NCBI GenBank assembly: GCA_027080995.1
Contig: JALWNT010000083.1
Location: 1-40,824 of the forward strand
Direction: 5' to 3'
DNA: 40,824 nucleotides
Origin: Campylobacteraceae bacterium
Lineage (GTDB): Bacteria; Campylobacterota; Campylobacteria; Campylobacterales; Sulfurovaceae
A model generated the notes under the pieces. It saw only the letters and a list, made by a program, of their open reading frames with translations. It was not told the origin of the DNA and searched no databases. The first letter of the stretch is position 1. The number at the start of each line of letters is the position of its first letter. Shown one piece after another: positions 5,690-35,954 of this stretch. The position numbers were made by a program, and so were the translations under genes.

Positions 5690-6172
<483 letters not shown>

Positions 6173-6187
6173 GACCAAGGAAAGAAT

Positions 6188-8269
6188 ATGCCCAGATCAC
6201 ACCCTATCGAAAAAGTACGCAATATCGGAATCGCGGCGCACATCGACGCCGGGAAGACCACCACCACCGAACGGATCCTCTTTTACACCGGCGTCAGCCA
6301 CAAGATCGGTGAAGTCCACGACGGTGCCGCCACGATGGACTGGATGGAGCAGGAGCAAGAGCGCGGGATCACCATTACCTCCGCGGCGACCACCTGTGAA
6401 TGGAAAGGCGTCCAGATCAACATCATCGACACTCCGGGCCACGTCGACTTCACCATCGAAGTCGAGCGCTCGATGCGTGTCCTCGACGGCGCGGTCGCCG
6501 TCTTTTGTTCCGTCGGTGGCGTCCAGCCCCAGTCGGAGACCGTCTGGCGCCAGGCCAACAAGTACCACGTCCCCCGTATGGTCTTCGTCAACAAGATGGA
6601 CCGTACCGGTGCCGATTTCTTTGAGGTCGAGCGCCAGATCAAAGACCGCCTCAACGCCAACCCCGTTCCCATCCAGATCCCCATCGGTGCCGAAGAGAAC
6701 TTCAAGGGTGTCGTCGACCTCGTCGAGATGAAAGCGGTCATCTGGGACGACGATCAGAGCCTGATGGGTCAAAAGTACGAAATCGTCGACATCCCCGAAG
6801 ATTTGGTCGAACTGGCCGAAGAGTATCGGGAAAAGATGATCGAAGCAGTCGCGGAGACCAGCGATGAGCTTCTCGACAAGTACATGGAGGGCGAAGAGCT
6901 CACCAAAGAGGAGATCAAAGCAGGCCTCAAGCAGGGATGCATCGACTTGAGTATCGTTCCGATGACCTGCGGTACCGCCTTTAAGAACAAAGGGGTCCAG
7001 ACGCTTCTCGACGCGGTTGTCGACTATATGCCGGCTCCGACCGAAGTCCCCCCGATCAAGGGACAATACGAAGACGGCACCGAAGTTCTCGTCGAGTCGA
7101 CCGACAACGGCCCCTTCGCCGCGTTGGCGTTCAAGATCATGACCGACCCCTTCGTAGGGCAGCTCACTTTCATCCGGGTCTACCGCGGGATTTTGAACTC
7201 CGGTTCTTATGTCTACAACACCAGCAAAGATAAAAAAGAGCGGATCGGTCGTCTGCTGCGGATGCACTCCAACAAACGCGAAGAGATCAGCGAACTCTAC
7301 GCCGGAGAGATCGGCGCCGTCGTCGGCCTGAAGTATACGCTCACCGGTGATACCCTCGCCGACGAGAAAGACAAAGTCATCCTCGAGAAGATGGAATTCC
7401 CCGATCCCGTCATCTCCGTCGCCGTCGAGCCCAAGACCAAAGCCGACCAGGAGAAGATGGGTGTCGCTCTGCAAAAACTGGCGCAGGAGGATCCCTCTTT
7501 CCGTGTCACCACCGACGAAGAGTCCGGGCAGACCATCATCTCCGGAATGGGCGAACTTCACCTCGAGATCCTCGTCGATCGGATGATGCGGGAATTCAAG
7601 GTCGAAGCGGAAGTCGGCGCACCTCAGGTCGCTTACCGCGAAACGATCAAAGCTCCCGTCAACCAGGAGTACAAGTACGCCAAGCAGTCCGGCGGACGCG
7701 GACAGTACGGTCACGTCTTCCTCAAGATCGAGCCCCAGGAGCAGGGTGCCGGGTACGAGTTTATCGACGAGATCAAGGGTGGTGTCATCCCCAAAGAGTA
7801 CATCCCTGCCGTCGACAAGGGTATCCAGGAGGCGATGCAGCGGGGTATCCAGGCTGGCTACCCTGTCGAAGACGTCAAAGTCACTCTCTACGACGGAAGC
7901 TACCACGAAGTCGACTCGTCGGAGATGGCCTTCAAACTGGCCGGATCCATGGGCTTCCGTGAAGGAGCCAAGAAAGCCAACCCCGTCATCCTCGAGCCGA
8001 TCATGAAGGTCGAAGTCGAAGTCCCCGAAGACTATATGGGTGACGTCATCGGTGATATCAACAAGCGCCGCGGACAGATCAACGGAATGGGCGACCGTGC
8101 CGGCAACAAGATCGTCGACGCCTTCGTCCCTCTGGCCGAAATGTTCGGTTATTCCACCGACCTGCGTTCTATGACGCAGGGGCGCGCGACCTACGCGATG
8201 GAGTTCGATCATTACGACGAAGTTCCCTCCAACGTCGCCAAAGAGATCATCGAAAAGCGCAACGGATAA
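6188..8269 (+). CDS. fusA: Elongation factor G
   Basis: This 693-aa translational GTPase drives ribosomal translocation and, with RRF, recycling. The G domain shows G1 AHIDAGKTT (residues 17-25), the switch I region ending in [11 protein letters not shown]3 DTPGHVDF (81-88, with His85) and G4 NKMDR. The C-terminal domains IV and V follow, including [11 protein letters not shown] and the [18 protein letters not shown] block. The length is full. The start at 6188 has AAGGAAAG upstream. No tuf gene follows, unlike in E. coli but as in other Campylobacterota. Confidence 0.98.
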
Positions 8270-31958: not shown

Positions 31959-33878
31959 ATGATGGATCCGGTCCCTAAACAGTGCGAGAAAAAATACTAT
32001 TTTGACGTTGTAATTCTGCGTTCTGCAGCCCCTTCGCTTACTTACCACTACCATCAAAAGCTTCTCCCTGGACAAACCGTAGAAGTAGAGATTAAAAATC
32101 ACCGTAAAAAAGCCGTCATCCTTCGGCAATGCGAAACAGCCCCATTTGAAACATTACCGATCAAGCAGGTTCTTGACTATCATTACGAGGAGTGGCAACA
32201 AGAAAGCGCCCGGTTTATCGCCGGTTATTATTTCTCTTCTCTTGGAGAATCTTTCGCTCAAATCCTCCCCTATCCCATCGCAACACGAAACAAAGAGATA
32301 AATGTAGAGAGAAGAGAGGTATCAAAAGAGGGGGAGACTCTCAAAACTATGCAAGATATTTCCCTCCCTAACCTGAGCGCATTTCAACAAAAAGCCTACA
32401 GCGCCCTTTGCAAGAGGAAAAACGCTCTACTCTTTGGGGTCACCGGCTCAGGCAAGACCGAACTCTACATCACCCGCATGGCCGAAATGCTCACAAAGGG
32501 TAAAAACTGCATTCTCTTGATGCCGGAGATCGCACTGACGCCGCAGATGGAGCGACGACTCAAACGCTATTTTGGAGAGAGTGTGGCGCTTTGGCACTCT
32601 CGGTTGAGCAAGAAAAAGAAAGAGGAGATCCTCGAAGGAATCCACGGAGGGCGGATCCGCATCGTCGCCGGAGCTCGTTCGGCTCTTTTCGTCCCCCTGA
32701 AGGACCTGGGGCTCATCATCGTCGACGAAGAGCACGACGACAGCTACAAAGCGATGACCCGTCCCCGCTACCATGCCAGAGATCTCGCTCTGTATATCGG
32801 GCGACAAAGAGGAGCCCAAGTCTGGCTGGCCAGCGCGACTCCCTCGGTCTCCAGCTTTGTAAAACATCCTGTCGTTCGTCTCAAAGAGCCCTATATACGG
32901 ACAAAAAAAGAGTACCGCTTTGTCCCCGGGGACACGCTGACACCGACGATTCTCGACGCTCTGGCCGTAAACTACCGTCGGGGAGAGCAGAGCCTGGTTT
33001 TCGTTCCCACCCGGGCCAGTTTCAAATACCTTTGGTGTGAAGCTTGCGGACGCACCCATACCTGTCCCTACTGCTCCGTGGGAATGAGCCTCCATCGCCG
33101 CCGCCGCCATCTGCGCTGCCACCACTGCCACTACACCGAACCGATCCGGGAGAGTTGCCTACACTGCGGACACGCTCCGCTCAAGAGCGACCGCATCGGT
33201 ACCGAAGAGGTCATCGAAGTGATCGAACGTGCGATTCCCGGAATCCGCGTCGAGCAATTCGACAAAGACGCCATCACCACTCCGGGCAAACTGGAAAAGG
33301 CCCTCCGACGCATCGAAAAGGGAGAAAGCGATGTCATCGTCGGTACTCAGATGCTCAGCAAAGGGCACGACTACCCCAACATCACCCTCAGCGTCATCAC
33401 CGGACTCGATTATCTGAGCGGCATGGGGGATTATCGTGCCCGCGAACGTGCCGTCGCACTGCTCCATCAAATCGCGGGACGAAGCGGCCGGAACAAAGAT
33501 GCGCTGATTCTTATCCAAAGCGCTCATCCCGATGCGTACAAACCCTATCTTCATGACTACGAAAACTTTCTGCGGGATGAGAAAGAGTTTCGACACCTGG
33601 GAAGCTATCCGCCTTTCACCCATCTCGCCCGTCTTCTCATCGCGCACAAAGAGGAGGCCAAAGTCGCCGCCAAAACCCGGGAACTCGCAGAAAAGCTCCA
33701 CGTTTTCCCGGATATCGAAATCGTCGGCCACGGCCCCGCTCCTCTCGAACGCATCGCCGGAAAATACCGCTATACGGTTCTGCTGCGCGCCAAAGCCAGA
33801 AAACCTCTGCTTCAGGCATTGCACGCGGTCGCCGAGCGGGGAGTGGAGATCGATATGGACCCGGTCGAATTCTCTTGA
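31959..33878 (+). CDS. priA: Primosomal protein N' (replication restart helicase)
   Basis: PriA reloads the DnaB helicase at stalled forks. The 639-aa protein has an N-terminal DNA-binding part, Walker [10 protein letters not shown], the DEAH-type DEEHD box, and LASATPS. The zinc-binding segment is CEACGRTHTCPYCSVG followed by CRCHHCHY- and CLHCG-type pairs. The helicase C-terminal motif is GTQMLSKGHDYPNITLSVI and IAGRSGR. It is shorter than E. coli PriA (about 730 aa) because the N-terminal domain is reduced, as usual in this phylum. It may be translated from a leaderless mRNA. Its stop codon sits in a 14-bp palindrome next to a heptanucleotide array. Confidence 0.95.
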   Translation: MMDPVPKQCEKKYYFDVVILRSAAPSLTYHYHQKLLPGQTVEVEIKNHRKKAVILRQCETAPFETLPIKQVLDYHYEEWQQESARFIAGYYFSSLGESFAQILPYPIATRNKEINVERREVSKEGETLKTMQDISLPNLSAFQQKAYSALCKRKNALLFGVTGSGKTELYITRMAEMLTKGKNCILLMPEIALTPQMERRLKRYFGESVALWHSRLSKKKKEEILEGIHGGRIRIVAGARSALFVPLKDLGLIIVDEEHDDSYKAMTRPRYHARDLALYIGRQRGAQVWLASATPSVSSFVKHPVVRLKEPYIRTKKEYRFVPGDTLTPTILDALAVNYRRGEQSLVFVPTRASFKYLWCEACGRTHTCPYCSVGMSLHRRRRHLRCHHCHYTEPIRESCLHCGHAPLKSDRIGTEEVIEVIERAIPGIRVEQFDKDAITTPGKLEKALRRIEKGESDVIVGTQMLSKGHDYPNITLSVITGLDYLSGMGDYRARERAVALLHQIAGRSGRNKDALILIQSAHPDAYKPYLHDYENFLRDEKEFRHLGSYPPFTHLARLLIAHKEEAKVAAKTRELAEKLHVFPDIEIVGHGPAPLERIAGKYRYTVLLRAKARKPLLQALHAVAERGVEIDMDPVEFS

Positions 33879-33890
33879 ATTCGACCGGGT
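33859..33890 (+). repeat. 14-bp perfect palindrome over the priA stop codon
   Basis: ACCCGGTCGAATTC (33859-33872) and its exact reverse complement (33877-33890) are separated by TCTT. The left arm is coding sequence for the last priA residues (DPVEFS). The stop TGA is at 33876-33878. There is no T-run afterwards. The right arm is an inverted copy of the gene end, placed directly next to the heptanucleotide array. Confidence 0.9.
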
Positions 33891-33893
33891 GAT

Positions 33894-33921
33894 GAATGGT
33901 TAATGGTGAATGGTGAATGGT
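33894..33921 (+). repeat. Heptanucleotide array (GAATGGT), left border of the S23 cassette
   Basis: Four units read GAATGGT, TAATGGT, GAATGGT, GAATGGT. The same heptamer occurs in opposite orientation on the other side of the S23 gene. Confidence 0.85.
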
Positions 33922-33929
33922 TTTGGTAT

Positions 33930-33946
33930 GCTTTTCTGCGAAAAGC
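33930..33946 (+). repeat. Left inner hairpin of the S23 cassette
   Basis: GCTTTTC-TGC-GAAAAGC is a perfect 7-bp stem with a 3-nt loop, 8 nt inside the left heptanucleotide array and 38 nt before the S23 start codon. Confidence 0.75.
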
Positions 33947-33984: not shown

Positions 33985-34335
33985 ATGGAGACGAGTATTG
34001 AAGAGTTGAGTTATCGCTTTGCATTGCGTATTGTAAAGCTGAATGAAGCGCTTCAACGTCACCAGCATTATGTTCTGTCAAAACAGTTACTTCGATCCGG
34101 TACTGCGATCGGCCCACTGGCTGCGGAGGCACAATATGCTCAATCAAAGCCTGATTTTATCCACAAACTCCAAATAGCATTGAAAGAAGCCAACGAAACA
34201 AGATATTGGCTGCGCCTATTGCGGGATAGCGGCTATATCGACTCTGATCTTTTCAGCAGTCTATTGTCGGAATTGGAAAGTATCATTCGAATTCTGACAC
34301 GTATCGTCAACACCAGCAAAAAGAATCTGCAATGA
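33985..34335 (+). CDS. Four-helix-bundle protein of the S23/IVP (Avd-like) family
   Basis: This 116-aa protein is a member of the 23S rRNA-intervening-sequence protein family. Its signatures are [55 protein letters not shown] and a final helix. The usual IGANxxEA after RSGTAIG reads IGPLAAEA. The fold is a pentameric helix bundle related to Avd of diversity-generating retroelements. The function is unknown, though nucleic-acid binding is likely from family knowledge. It is an accessory gene set between two core genes (priA and ispG) and framed by mirror-image heptanucleotide arrays and hairpins. Its start has only GGGG upstream. Confidence 0.88.
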
Positions 34336-34357: not shown

Positions 34358-34372
34358 CGTTGCAAGGCAACG
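34358..34372 (+). repeat. Right inner hairpin of the S23 cassette
   Basis: CGTTGC-AAG-GCAACG is a perfect 6-bp stem with a 3-nt loop, 22 nt after the S23 stop and 8 nt before the right heptanucleotide array. It mirrors the hairpin at 33,930. Confidence 0.75.
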
Positions 34373-34380
34373 CTTCCACA

Positions 34381-34415
34381 ACCATTCACCATTCACCATT
34401 CACCATTCACCATTT
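34381..34415 (+). repeat. Heptanucleotide array (ACCATTC), right border of the S23 cassette
   Basis: Four perfect ACCATTC units are followed by ACCATTT. ACCATTC is the reverse complement of GAATGGT, so the two arrays are inverted repeats around the S23 gene. Confidence 0.9.
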
Positions 34416-34439
34416 TCTTCGGAGCCCCTCCGATGAAAG
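34413..34439 (+). promoter_or_regulatory. Hairpin covering the ispG Shine-Dalgarno and start codon
   Basis: CGGAG-CCC-CTCCG (34420-34432) forms the stem top. It extends outward with T-A, one T-T mismatch, C-G, three T-A pairs and a G-U pair to 34413/34439. The GGAG Shine-Dalgarno (34421-34424) is paired and the ATG at 34433 is within the stem. Confidence 0.65.
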
Positions 34440-35517: not shown

Positions 35518-35748
35518 ATGGCAAATATTGATGAGATCAAAGAGATCTTGAATACTCTACGTGTCTGGTTGAGTTTGACAATCGGTATGATTGCTGTTAT
35601 CGGTGGAGGACTCATCAGGCGATATGATGCAAAAAAAGAGGATTGGATTTTCTATTCAGGATCGTTTTTGCTTTTATTATTGCTAATGGCACTTTTCTTG
35701 ATCATACGTCAAATATCGATCAAAACCAAAGAGATAAAGGATCTATAA
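35518..35748 (+). CDS. Small two-helix membrane protein, unknown
   Basis: I do not recognise a named function for this 76-aa protein. It begins MANIDEIKEILNTLRVW, followed by a hydrophobic helix LSLTIGMIAVIGGGLI, a charged turn RRYDAKKEDW, a second helix FYSGSFLLLLLLMALFLII and a basic tail RQISIKTKEIKDL. Both ends should face the cytoplasm. The codon use is more AT-rich than in ispG and dnaB, so it may be an acquired gene. Its stop overlaps the start of a 27-aa microprotein gene (TAATG), so both are translated together. Confidence 0.7.
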   Translation: MANIDEIKEILNTLRVWLSLTIGMIAVIGGGLIRRYDAKKEDWIFYSGSFLLLLLLMALFLIIRQISIKTKEIKDL

Positions 35749-35831
35749 TGGCAGAACTTATTTTTGTGGTGGCTGCAGTATTACTGGGTGCCGCGTTTAT
35801 TTATGGAAGCTTCAAGCTGGCAGAAGAGTAA
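35748..35831 (+). CDS. 27-aa single-helix microprotein
   Basis: The tiny frame reads MAELIFVVAAVLLGAAFIYGSFKLAEE. It starts at an ATG that overlaps the previous stop (TAATG), with AAAGG 8 nt upstream. Nearly the whole length is one transmembrane helix with small residues (AAVLLGAA) that could pack against another helix. The overlap and ribosome-binding site are the evidence that it is translated. It probably works with the 76-aa protein, but the role is unknown. A chance frame is the alternative. Confidence 0.55.
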   Translation: MAELIFVVAAVLLGAAFIYGSFKLAEE

Positions 35832-35861: not shown

Positions 35862-35878
35862 GTTTTGCAAAGCAAAAC
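35862..35878 (+). repeat. Hairpin upstream of the dnaB heptanucleotide array
   Basis: GTTTTGC-AAA-GCAAAAC is a perfect 7-bp stem with a 3-nt loop, 11 nt before the heptanucleotide array. The arrangement is the same as at the right border of the S23 cassette. Confidence 0.75.
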
Positions 35879-35889
35879 ATACAACAATT

Positions 35890-35917
35890 CTTCGCTCTTC
35901 GCTCTTCGCTCTTCACT
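35890..35917 (+). repeat. Heptanucleotide array (CTTCGCT) upstream of dnaB
   Basis: Units CTTCGCT, CTTCGCT, CTTCGCT, CTTCACT run directly into the dnaB-start palindrome. Confidence 0.85.
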
Positions 35918-35918
35918 T

Positions 35919-35954
35919 GATGTTCCATCACAAGGAGCCTTGTGATGGAACATC
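35919..35954 (+). promoter_or_regulatory. 16-bp perfect hairpin burying the dnaB start
   Basis: GATGTTCCATCACAAG (35919-35934) pairs without mismatch to 35939-35954 around the loop GAGC. The Shine-Dalgarno AAGGAG (35932-35937) lies half in the stem and half in the loop. The ATG (35945-35947) is entirely in the stem. The right arm is coding (MEHL), so the left arm is an inverted copy of the gene start. Confidence 0.92.

Follow-up and report, generated by a model that had tools for sequence, protein, structure and literature searches.

The window, a stretch of 40,824 nucleotides from a Campylobacteraceae bacterium (GenBank assembly GCA_027080995.1, contig JALWNT010000083.1), raises a question at the end of its priA gene: why are the last codons followed at once by an inverted copy of themselves, and why does this copy stand beside an array of a heptanucleotide? 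The palindrome announced in the preliminary description is indeed there, and so is the inverted copy of priA coding sequence next to an array. The two 14-bp arms are 100% complementary with a 4-nt turn (span 33859-33890), the left arm belongs to the coding sequence for the C-terminal residues of PriA (..MDPVEFS*), whose stop codon TGA occupies 33876-33878, so that the right arm starts within the stop codon. After a gap of about 2-4 nt, the array, readable as GAATGGT or TGAATGG, begins at 33893. Window-wide, three perfect stems of at least 10 bp with a turn of at most 8 nt are found, two of them at most 4 nt from an array. In predicted RNA folding the priA stem reaches -26.8 kcal/mol on the + strand (z -3.6) and -25.2 on the - strand (z -6.2). 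The palindrome is a real, confirmed feature, and it is one border of an element of about 0.5 kb that sits between priA and ispG, in which inverted arrays of one heptamer enclose an Avd-like PF05635 gene:

33859..33872, + strand: coding arm ACCCGGTCGAATTC, the last priA codons (..DPVEF), from sequence and translation
33873..33876, + strand: turn TCTT, whose final T is base 1 of the priA stop TGA, from sequence and translation
33877..33890, + strand: inverted copy of the priA end, GAATTCGACCGGGT, from sequence; in relatives only together with the element
33893..33921, + strand: left terminal array (GAATGGT)n, G-rich strand reading away from priA
33930..33946, + strand: left subterminal hairpin GCTTTTC-TGC-GAAAAGC with TTTTGGTAT before it (inner end motif), from sequence and a family-wide motif
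33985..34335, + strand: PF05635 23S_rRNA_IVP gene (Avd-like four-helix bundle), domain match with E 1.5e-26
34358..34372, + strand: right subterminal hairpin CGTTGC-AAG-GCAACG, from sequence and a family-wide motif
34381..34414, + strand: right terminal array (ACCATTC)n, the reverse complement of the left array
34414..34438, + strand: ispG start-edge palindrome TTTCTTCGGAG-ccc-CTCCGATGAAA, with one T-T mismatch, including the ispG ATG (34433)

The sole gene of this element encodes a 116-aa four-helix bundle protein. Terminal inverted repeats, as looked for in TIR transposons and MITEs, are present as matching inverted arrays around the PF05635 genes at priA and at L070, L074-L078, L080 and L083. 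Other PF05635 genes of the genus also lie between inverted arrays of one heptamer, the heptamer varying among elements, and many elements of this kind are without any gene. A typical inner end reads GCGTTGC-nnn-GCAACGC-ATACCGAAA-array, and in 67 of 160 cases an inner stem lies no more than 45 nt inward of the C-rich array, as against 3.6% at random. The word GCAACGCATACC is found in nine of the 13 genomes of the genus and is missing from G003 and G007, whose sampled stretches hold 0 and 2 arrays, respectively, and from G004 and G012. Three of these four genomes also have no PF05635 gene, and G007 has one. At the ispG border, the start-edge stem is shorter and imperfect in the window (10 of 11 pairs), and perfect in G001, G006 and G008. 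No direct target-site duplication is seen by eye at the priA/ispG borders.

A similar arrangement is found further downstream in the window, where the end of a second element meets the start of dnaB, an essential gene:

35862..35878, + strand: subterminal hairpin GTTTTGC-AAA-GCAAAAC with an ATAC motif, at the end of the second element
35889..35914, + strand: array of the second element, (TCTTCGC)n
35919..35954, + strand: dnaB start-edge palindrome with perfect 17-bp arms and a 2-nt turn, including the dnaB start

Between ispG and this element end, the window carries two short putative membrane-protein reading frames (35518-35830).

Is the neighborhood of palindrome and array peculiar to these gene edges? 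Palindromes with arms of at least 10 bp lying at most 15 nt from a period-7 array were counted in sampled stretches of four array-bearing genomes, namely 230 kb of the window's genome (G000), where the stretches were picked around CATTCAC arrays and are biased in this respect, 400 kb of G011, where they were sampled at regular intervals, 334 kb of G001 and 207 kb of G008. In total, 22 near-array palindromes were found as against about 1.2 expected under random placement (8 against 0.54 in the window's genome, 5 against 0.08 in G011, 7 against 0.44 in G001 and 2 against 0.11 in G008). The 400 kb of G011 hold 35 period-7 arrays, as against 0-5 at periods 4-6 and 8-10. The edge palindromes lack a family consensus: each copies its own gene, and only the inner hairpin GCGTTGC..GCAACGC recurs. 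Among 54 edge stems, 39 are at gene starts and 15 at gene stops; 32 have no mismatch, and in 12 the turn measures 0-2 nt, which is too tight for a selected RNA loop.

Furthermore, the association has a direction. The C-rich strand points at the hairpin in 40 of 48 array-adjacent hairpins; seven of the 48 lie on the G-rich side, at least five of these being recurring inner hairpins of elements. Counted by array ends in the four genomes, hairpins accompany 27 of 161 C-rich and 3 of 161 G-rich ends, as against 21 of 8000 positions drawn at random. In the genus, about 17% of C-rich array ends bear an edge hairpin, and about 83% are without such a palindrome. Seen from the flanking gene on either side of the element, each 3′ strand leads first through the inverted copy of its gene edge and then along the G-rich array strand, which is what extension of the two 3′ ends of a break would produce; judged from this anatomy, the geometry would match the two 3′ ends of a double-strand break.

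Comparison of 28 priA 3′ ends from relatives links the palindrome to the element itself. A perfect stem of 11-18 bp is found in five of them (G000, G005, G006, G001, and G009), all with the element, while the remaining 23 reach at most 7 bp. The preliminary description had predicted that the left arm should be conserved as coding sequence and the right arm present only with an array, and had named the same palindrome in array-less relatives as the finding that would speak against it. The left arm is kept as coding, the inverted arm occurs only where the element is present, and no array-less palindrome of this kind was found among the 28 ends. The priA end of G011 has an array with an imperfect stem, and in G008 priA is without a stem and an array with a perfect 14-bp stem is found at the ispG start.

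The arms also differ between genomes together with the genes. At the same priA codons, G000 has GACCCGGTCGAATTC and G006 has GATCCTGTGGAATTT, and the inverted arm matches the own codons in each. Further examples are ispG (G006 versus G001/G008), dnaB (G000 versus G006), a dedA-like gene (G000 L016 versus G001 L126), and the gene of L138/L115. Where orthologous edges differ, the non-coding arm usually appears to follow each genome's own synonymous codons, although the independent cases are fewer than the genomes, because the edges of G005/G006 and of G000/G009 are copies of one transferred segment; the priA alleles come down to about four kinds. Such transfer is seen in the identities: between G005 and G006 the element is 96-98% identical and the 3′ part of priA only 65-69%, and between G006 and G001 priA is 93% identical and the elements are unrelated. 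The element has therefore been exchanged between species, with sharp edges near the palindromes. The priA/ispG cassette is also seen swapped among species in other forms, with another PF05635 gene (55% aa) and other heptamers in G001, and a geneless version in G011.

An extreme case is the other end of ispG. In G001, G002, G005, and G006, the ispG 3′ end reads GAAGTTGAGC-ggttg-GCTCAACTTC, in frame in G001 and G006. In the latter two genomes (L083, L091), the copied arm replaces the native ispG stop and is translated in frame, and the array provides the new stop; the protein ends with EVERLAQLQSE*, as against a different native end in G000, where no array is present. Judged from the sequences, this gene end seems to have been overwritten by a mutation rather than shaped by gradual selection for a hairpin.

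Starting from the observed anatomy, the link to arrays, their orientation, the codon tracking, the lack of palindromes at element-free sites, and the exchange between species, we infer a break followed by fold-back and template-switch steps: on balance, the palindrome would be a border mark left by insertion of the element beside priA. A 3′ end at a break or at a stalled fork past the priA stop would fold back, copy 10-20 nt of the gene edge, switch to the G-rich strand of a heptamer array in an element elsewhere, and copy the element in. At ispG, the opposite 3′ end would go through these steps as well, so that this border would receive the heptamer in reverse orientation together with a gene-edge palindrome of its own. 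The arms may stay perfect through further template-switch correction and through recombination that moves the element with its borders. Perfect stems are known to arise by template switching in a single step, and also to be repaired and kept by it (PMC8794818), and the inverted copy at priA matches the adjacent sequence and is absent in element-less relatives, the pattern by which a template switch is recognized.

More tentatively, the elements may represent an undescribed class that inserts without a transposase of its own, broken 3′ ends folding back, copying the host gene edge and then being healed by copying in heptamer-ended elements; this is possible rather than probable, and if true, inverted copies of the target would be left instead of direct duplications. 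No Y1 transposase (PF01797) was found in G000, G005, G006, G009, and G002, though these genomes carry elements. RVT_1 is absent from 11 of the 13 genomes of the genus, including that of the window, and an origin from a reverse transcriptase or DGR, prompted by the Avd-like gene, was rejected because of its absence from the window's genome.

Or the stems may be selected RNA hairpins that shield priA mRNA at its 3′ end and control the translation of ispG and dnaB, with compensatory substitutions maintaining the pairing. In such a case the arrays would form a long paired stem, possibly an RNase III substrate, and the edge hairpins would guard the flanking messages. Indeed, the predicted stems are strong (z -3.6 to -7.4), in the predicted RNA fold the left and right arrays pair with an edge hairpin flanking each side of that stem (z -8.9), compensated differences are seen between genomes, and G-U mismatches are slightly in excess over A-C mismatches. 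This excess is, however, non-significant (GU 9, AC 5, and 15 of other types in the 54 edge stems, too few to decide on RNA selection), and the turns of 0-2 nt speak against a selected loop. Moreover, the benefit of a 17-bp stem over the start of dnaB is hard to see, and edges without an element have no stem at all. Selection on RNA is considered an unlikely origin of the palindromes.

Less likely again is a recombinase of the element that makes hairpin-capped flanking ends and opens them off-centre, resulting in long palindromic additions, which can be likened to P nucleotides of V(D)J recombination or hAT excision footprints. The palindromic nature of both borders of one element, the variable arm length (10-20 bp), and the lack of a visible direct target duplication at the priA/ispG borders are consistent with this scheme. 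However, there is no candidate enzyme, Y1 transposase and RVT_1 being absent from the window's genome; the one gene of the element encodes the small four-helix bundle protein, and many elements are geneless. An ordinary transcription terminator overlapping the priA stop by chance is highly improbable in spite of the strong hairpin at a gene end. The preliminary description had denied a canonical terminator for want of a T-run. Neither side or strand has one (GATGAATGG comes next on the + strand and CCATATCG on the - strand), the same structures are found at gene starts more often than at stops, and the hairpin is absent at priA of element-less relatives; an intrinsic terminator was rejected on the first two points. 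Chance or fold-back chimeras in metagenome assembly can hardly be credited, since, although the window comes from a draft assembly of 127 contigs and inverted chimeras do occur in assemblies, the same structures are found in the single-contig 2.1-Mb G011 (2,101,285 bases) and in many independent assemblies, with differing sequences at the same gene edges.

How far do the gene-edge copies at element borders extend beyond this lineage? In a set of 80 CATTCAC-heptamer loci taken from many phyla, two loci of Campylobacteraceae account for nearly all edge palindromes, and larger stretches of two Chloroflexota-type genomes and one Campylobacterales genome have no edge hairpin at 34 C-rich ends. A general property of heptamer arrays was ruled out, because the sampled arrays of the same heptamer in other phyla are without edge palindromes. 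The gene-edge copies look specific to this lineage as far as tested, and their absence in other phyla implies that the mechanism would need a lineage-specific factor. Thus, the earlier proposal that inverted duplication of gene edges accompanies array formation holds across many loci and genomes here, but not in general: the copies are confined to outer borders, and the arrays sampled in other phyla lack them. Apart from these, at three loci of unrelated bacteria (L181, L197, and L222) long palindromes close to CATTCAC arrays are faced by the G-rich strand, and may be terminators or repeats of another kind.

Intergenic regions of bacteria often contain heptamer arrays. According to the available passages on the G-rich heptamers of Xanthomonas and Nostoc (Rehm et al., 2015; PMC4692102), those arrays are, like the present ones, tandem with period 7, intergenic, and arranged in convergent inverted pairs, and their G-rich strand is in sense orientation behind stop codons and in antisense orientation ahead of start codons. 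The same rule, with the C-rich strand toward the gene edge, holds here. In contrast, these passages mention neither gene-edge palindromes nor mobile elements at the repeats, and the elements here have many heptamers, an inner hairpin motif, an enclosed gene, and G-runs of at most GG (as in GAATGGT and GCGAAGA), short of the 3-4 G of a quadruplex.

The borders resemble template-switch or quasipalindrome mutations, in which neighboring sequence is copied in reverse complement in one step and existing stems are perfected (PMC8794818; PMC7202029). Such mutations are known as scattered events, whereas here they would be recurrent, at the borders of one element class and at gene edges. Also comparable are the REP/REPIN systems with RAYT transposases, which have small hairpins between genes, in some cases with a conserved tag next to the stem, and in which TIR-flanked genes are called TIRtrons (PMC3733652). 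Membership in REP/RAYT or REPtrons was rejected, as there is no Y1 transposase in the window's genome and the edge palindromes differ gene by gene, with no sequence in many copies. The 23S rRNA intervening sequences with an IVP gene share the PF05635 family and a gene within inverted repeats able to pair; unlike these, the present element lies between the protein genes priA and ispG and ends with heptamer arrays. No rRNA match was found at the element in an Rfam scan, the best Rfam hit being far under its gathering score. In the open-access literature, neither work on heptamers nor work on Nitratifractor or on inverted duplications was found to describe such borders. The novelty lies in the combination of heptamer arrays and template-switch palindromes as borders of an exchanged element.

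Heptamer arrays act here as the ends of units exchanged between species, and their borders record the joining step as an inverted gene-edge copy whose orientation to the array is fixed. If fold-back is correct, the borders would amount to natural traces, across the genome, of template switching at the ends of breaks, and the origin of heptamer arrays would become testable. The border copies also alter real genes, as the C-terminus of ispG is rewritten and a 17-bp stem comes to cover the dnaB start. A denser arrangement is seen at L012 (3400-6350), where dense blocks of varied heptamer arrays, split by small hairpins, surround the genes of what may be a respiratory operon and seem to lie partly within them, for example ATCCAAA at 6052-6083 and 6268-6299.
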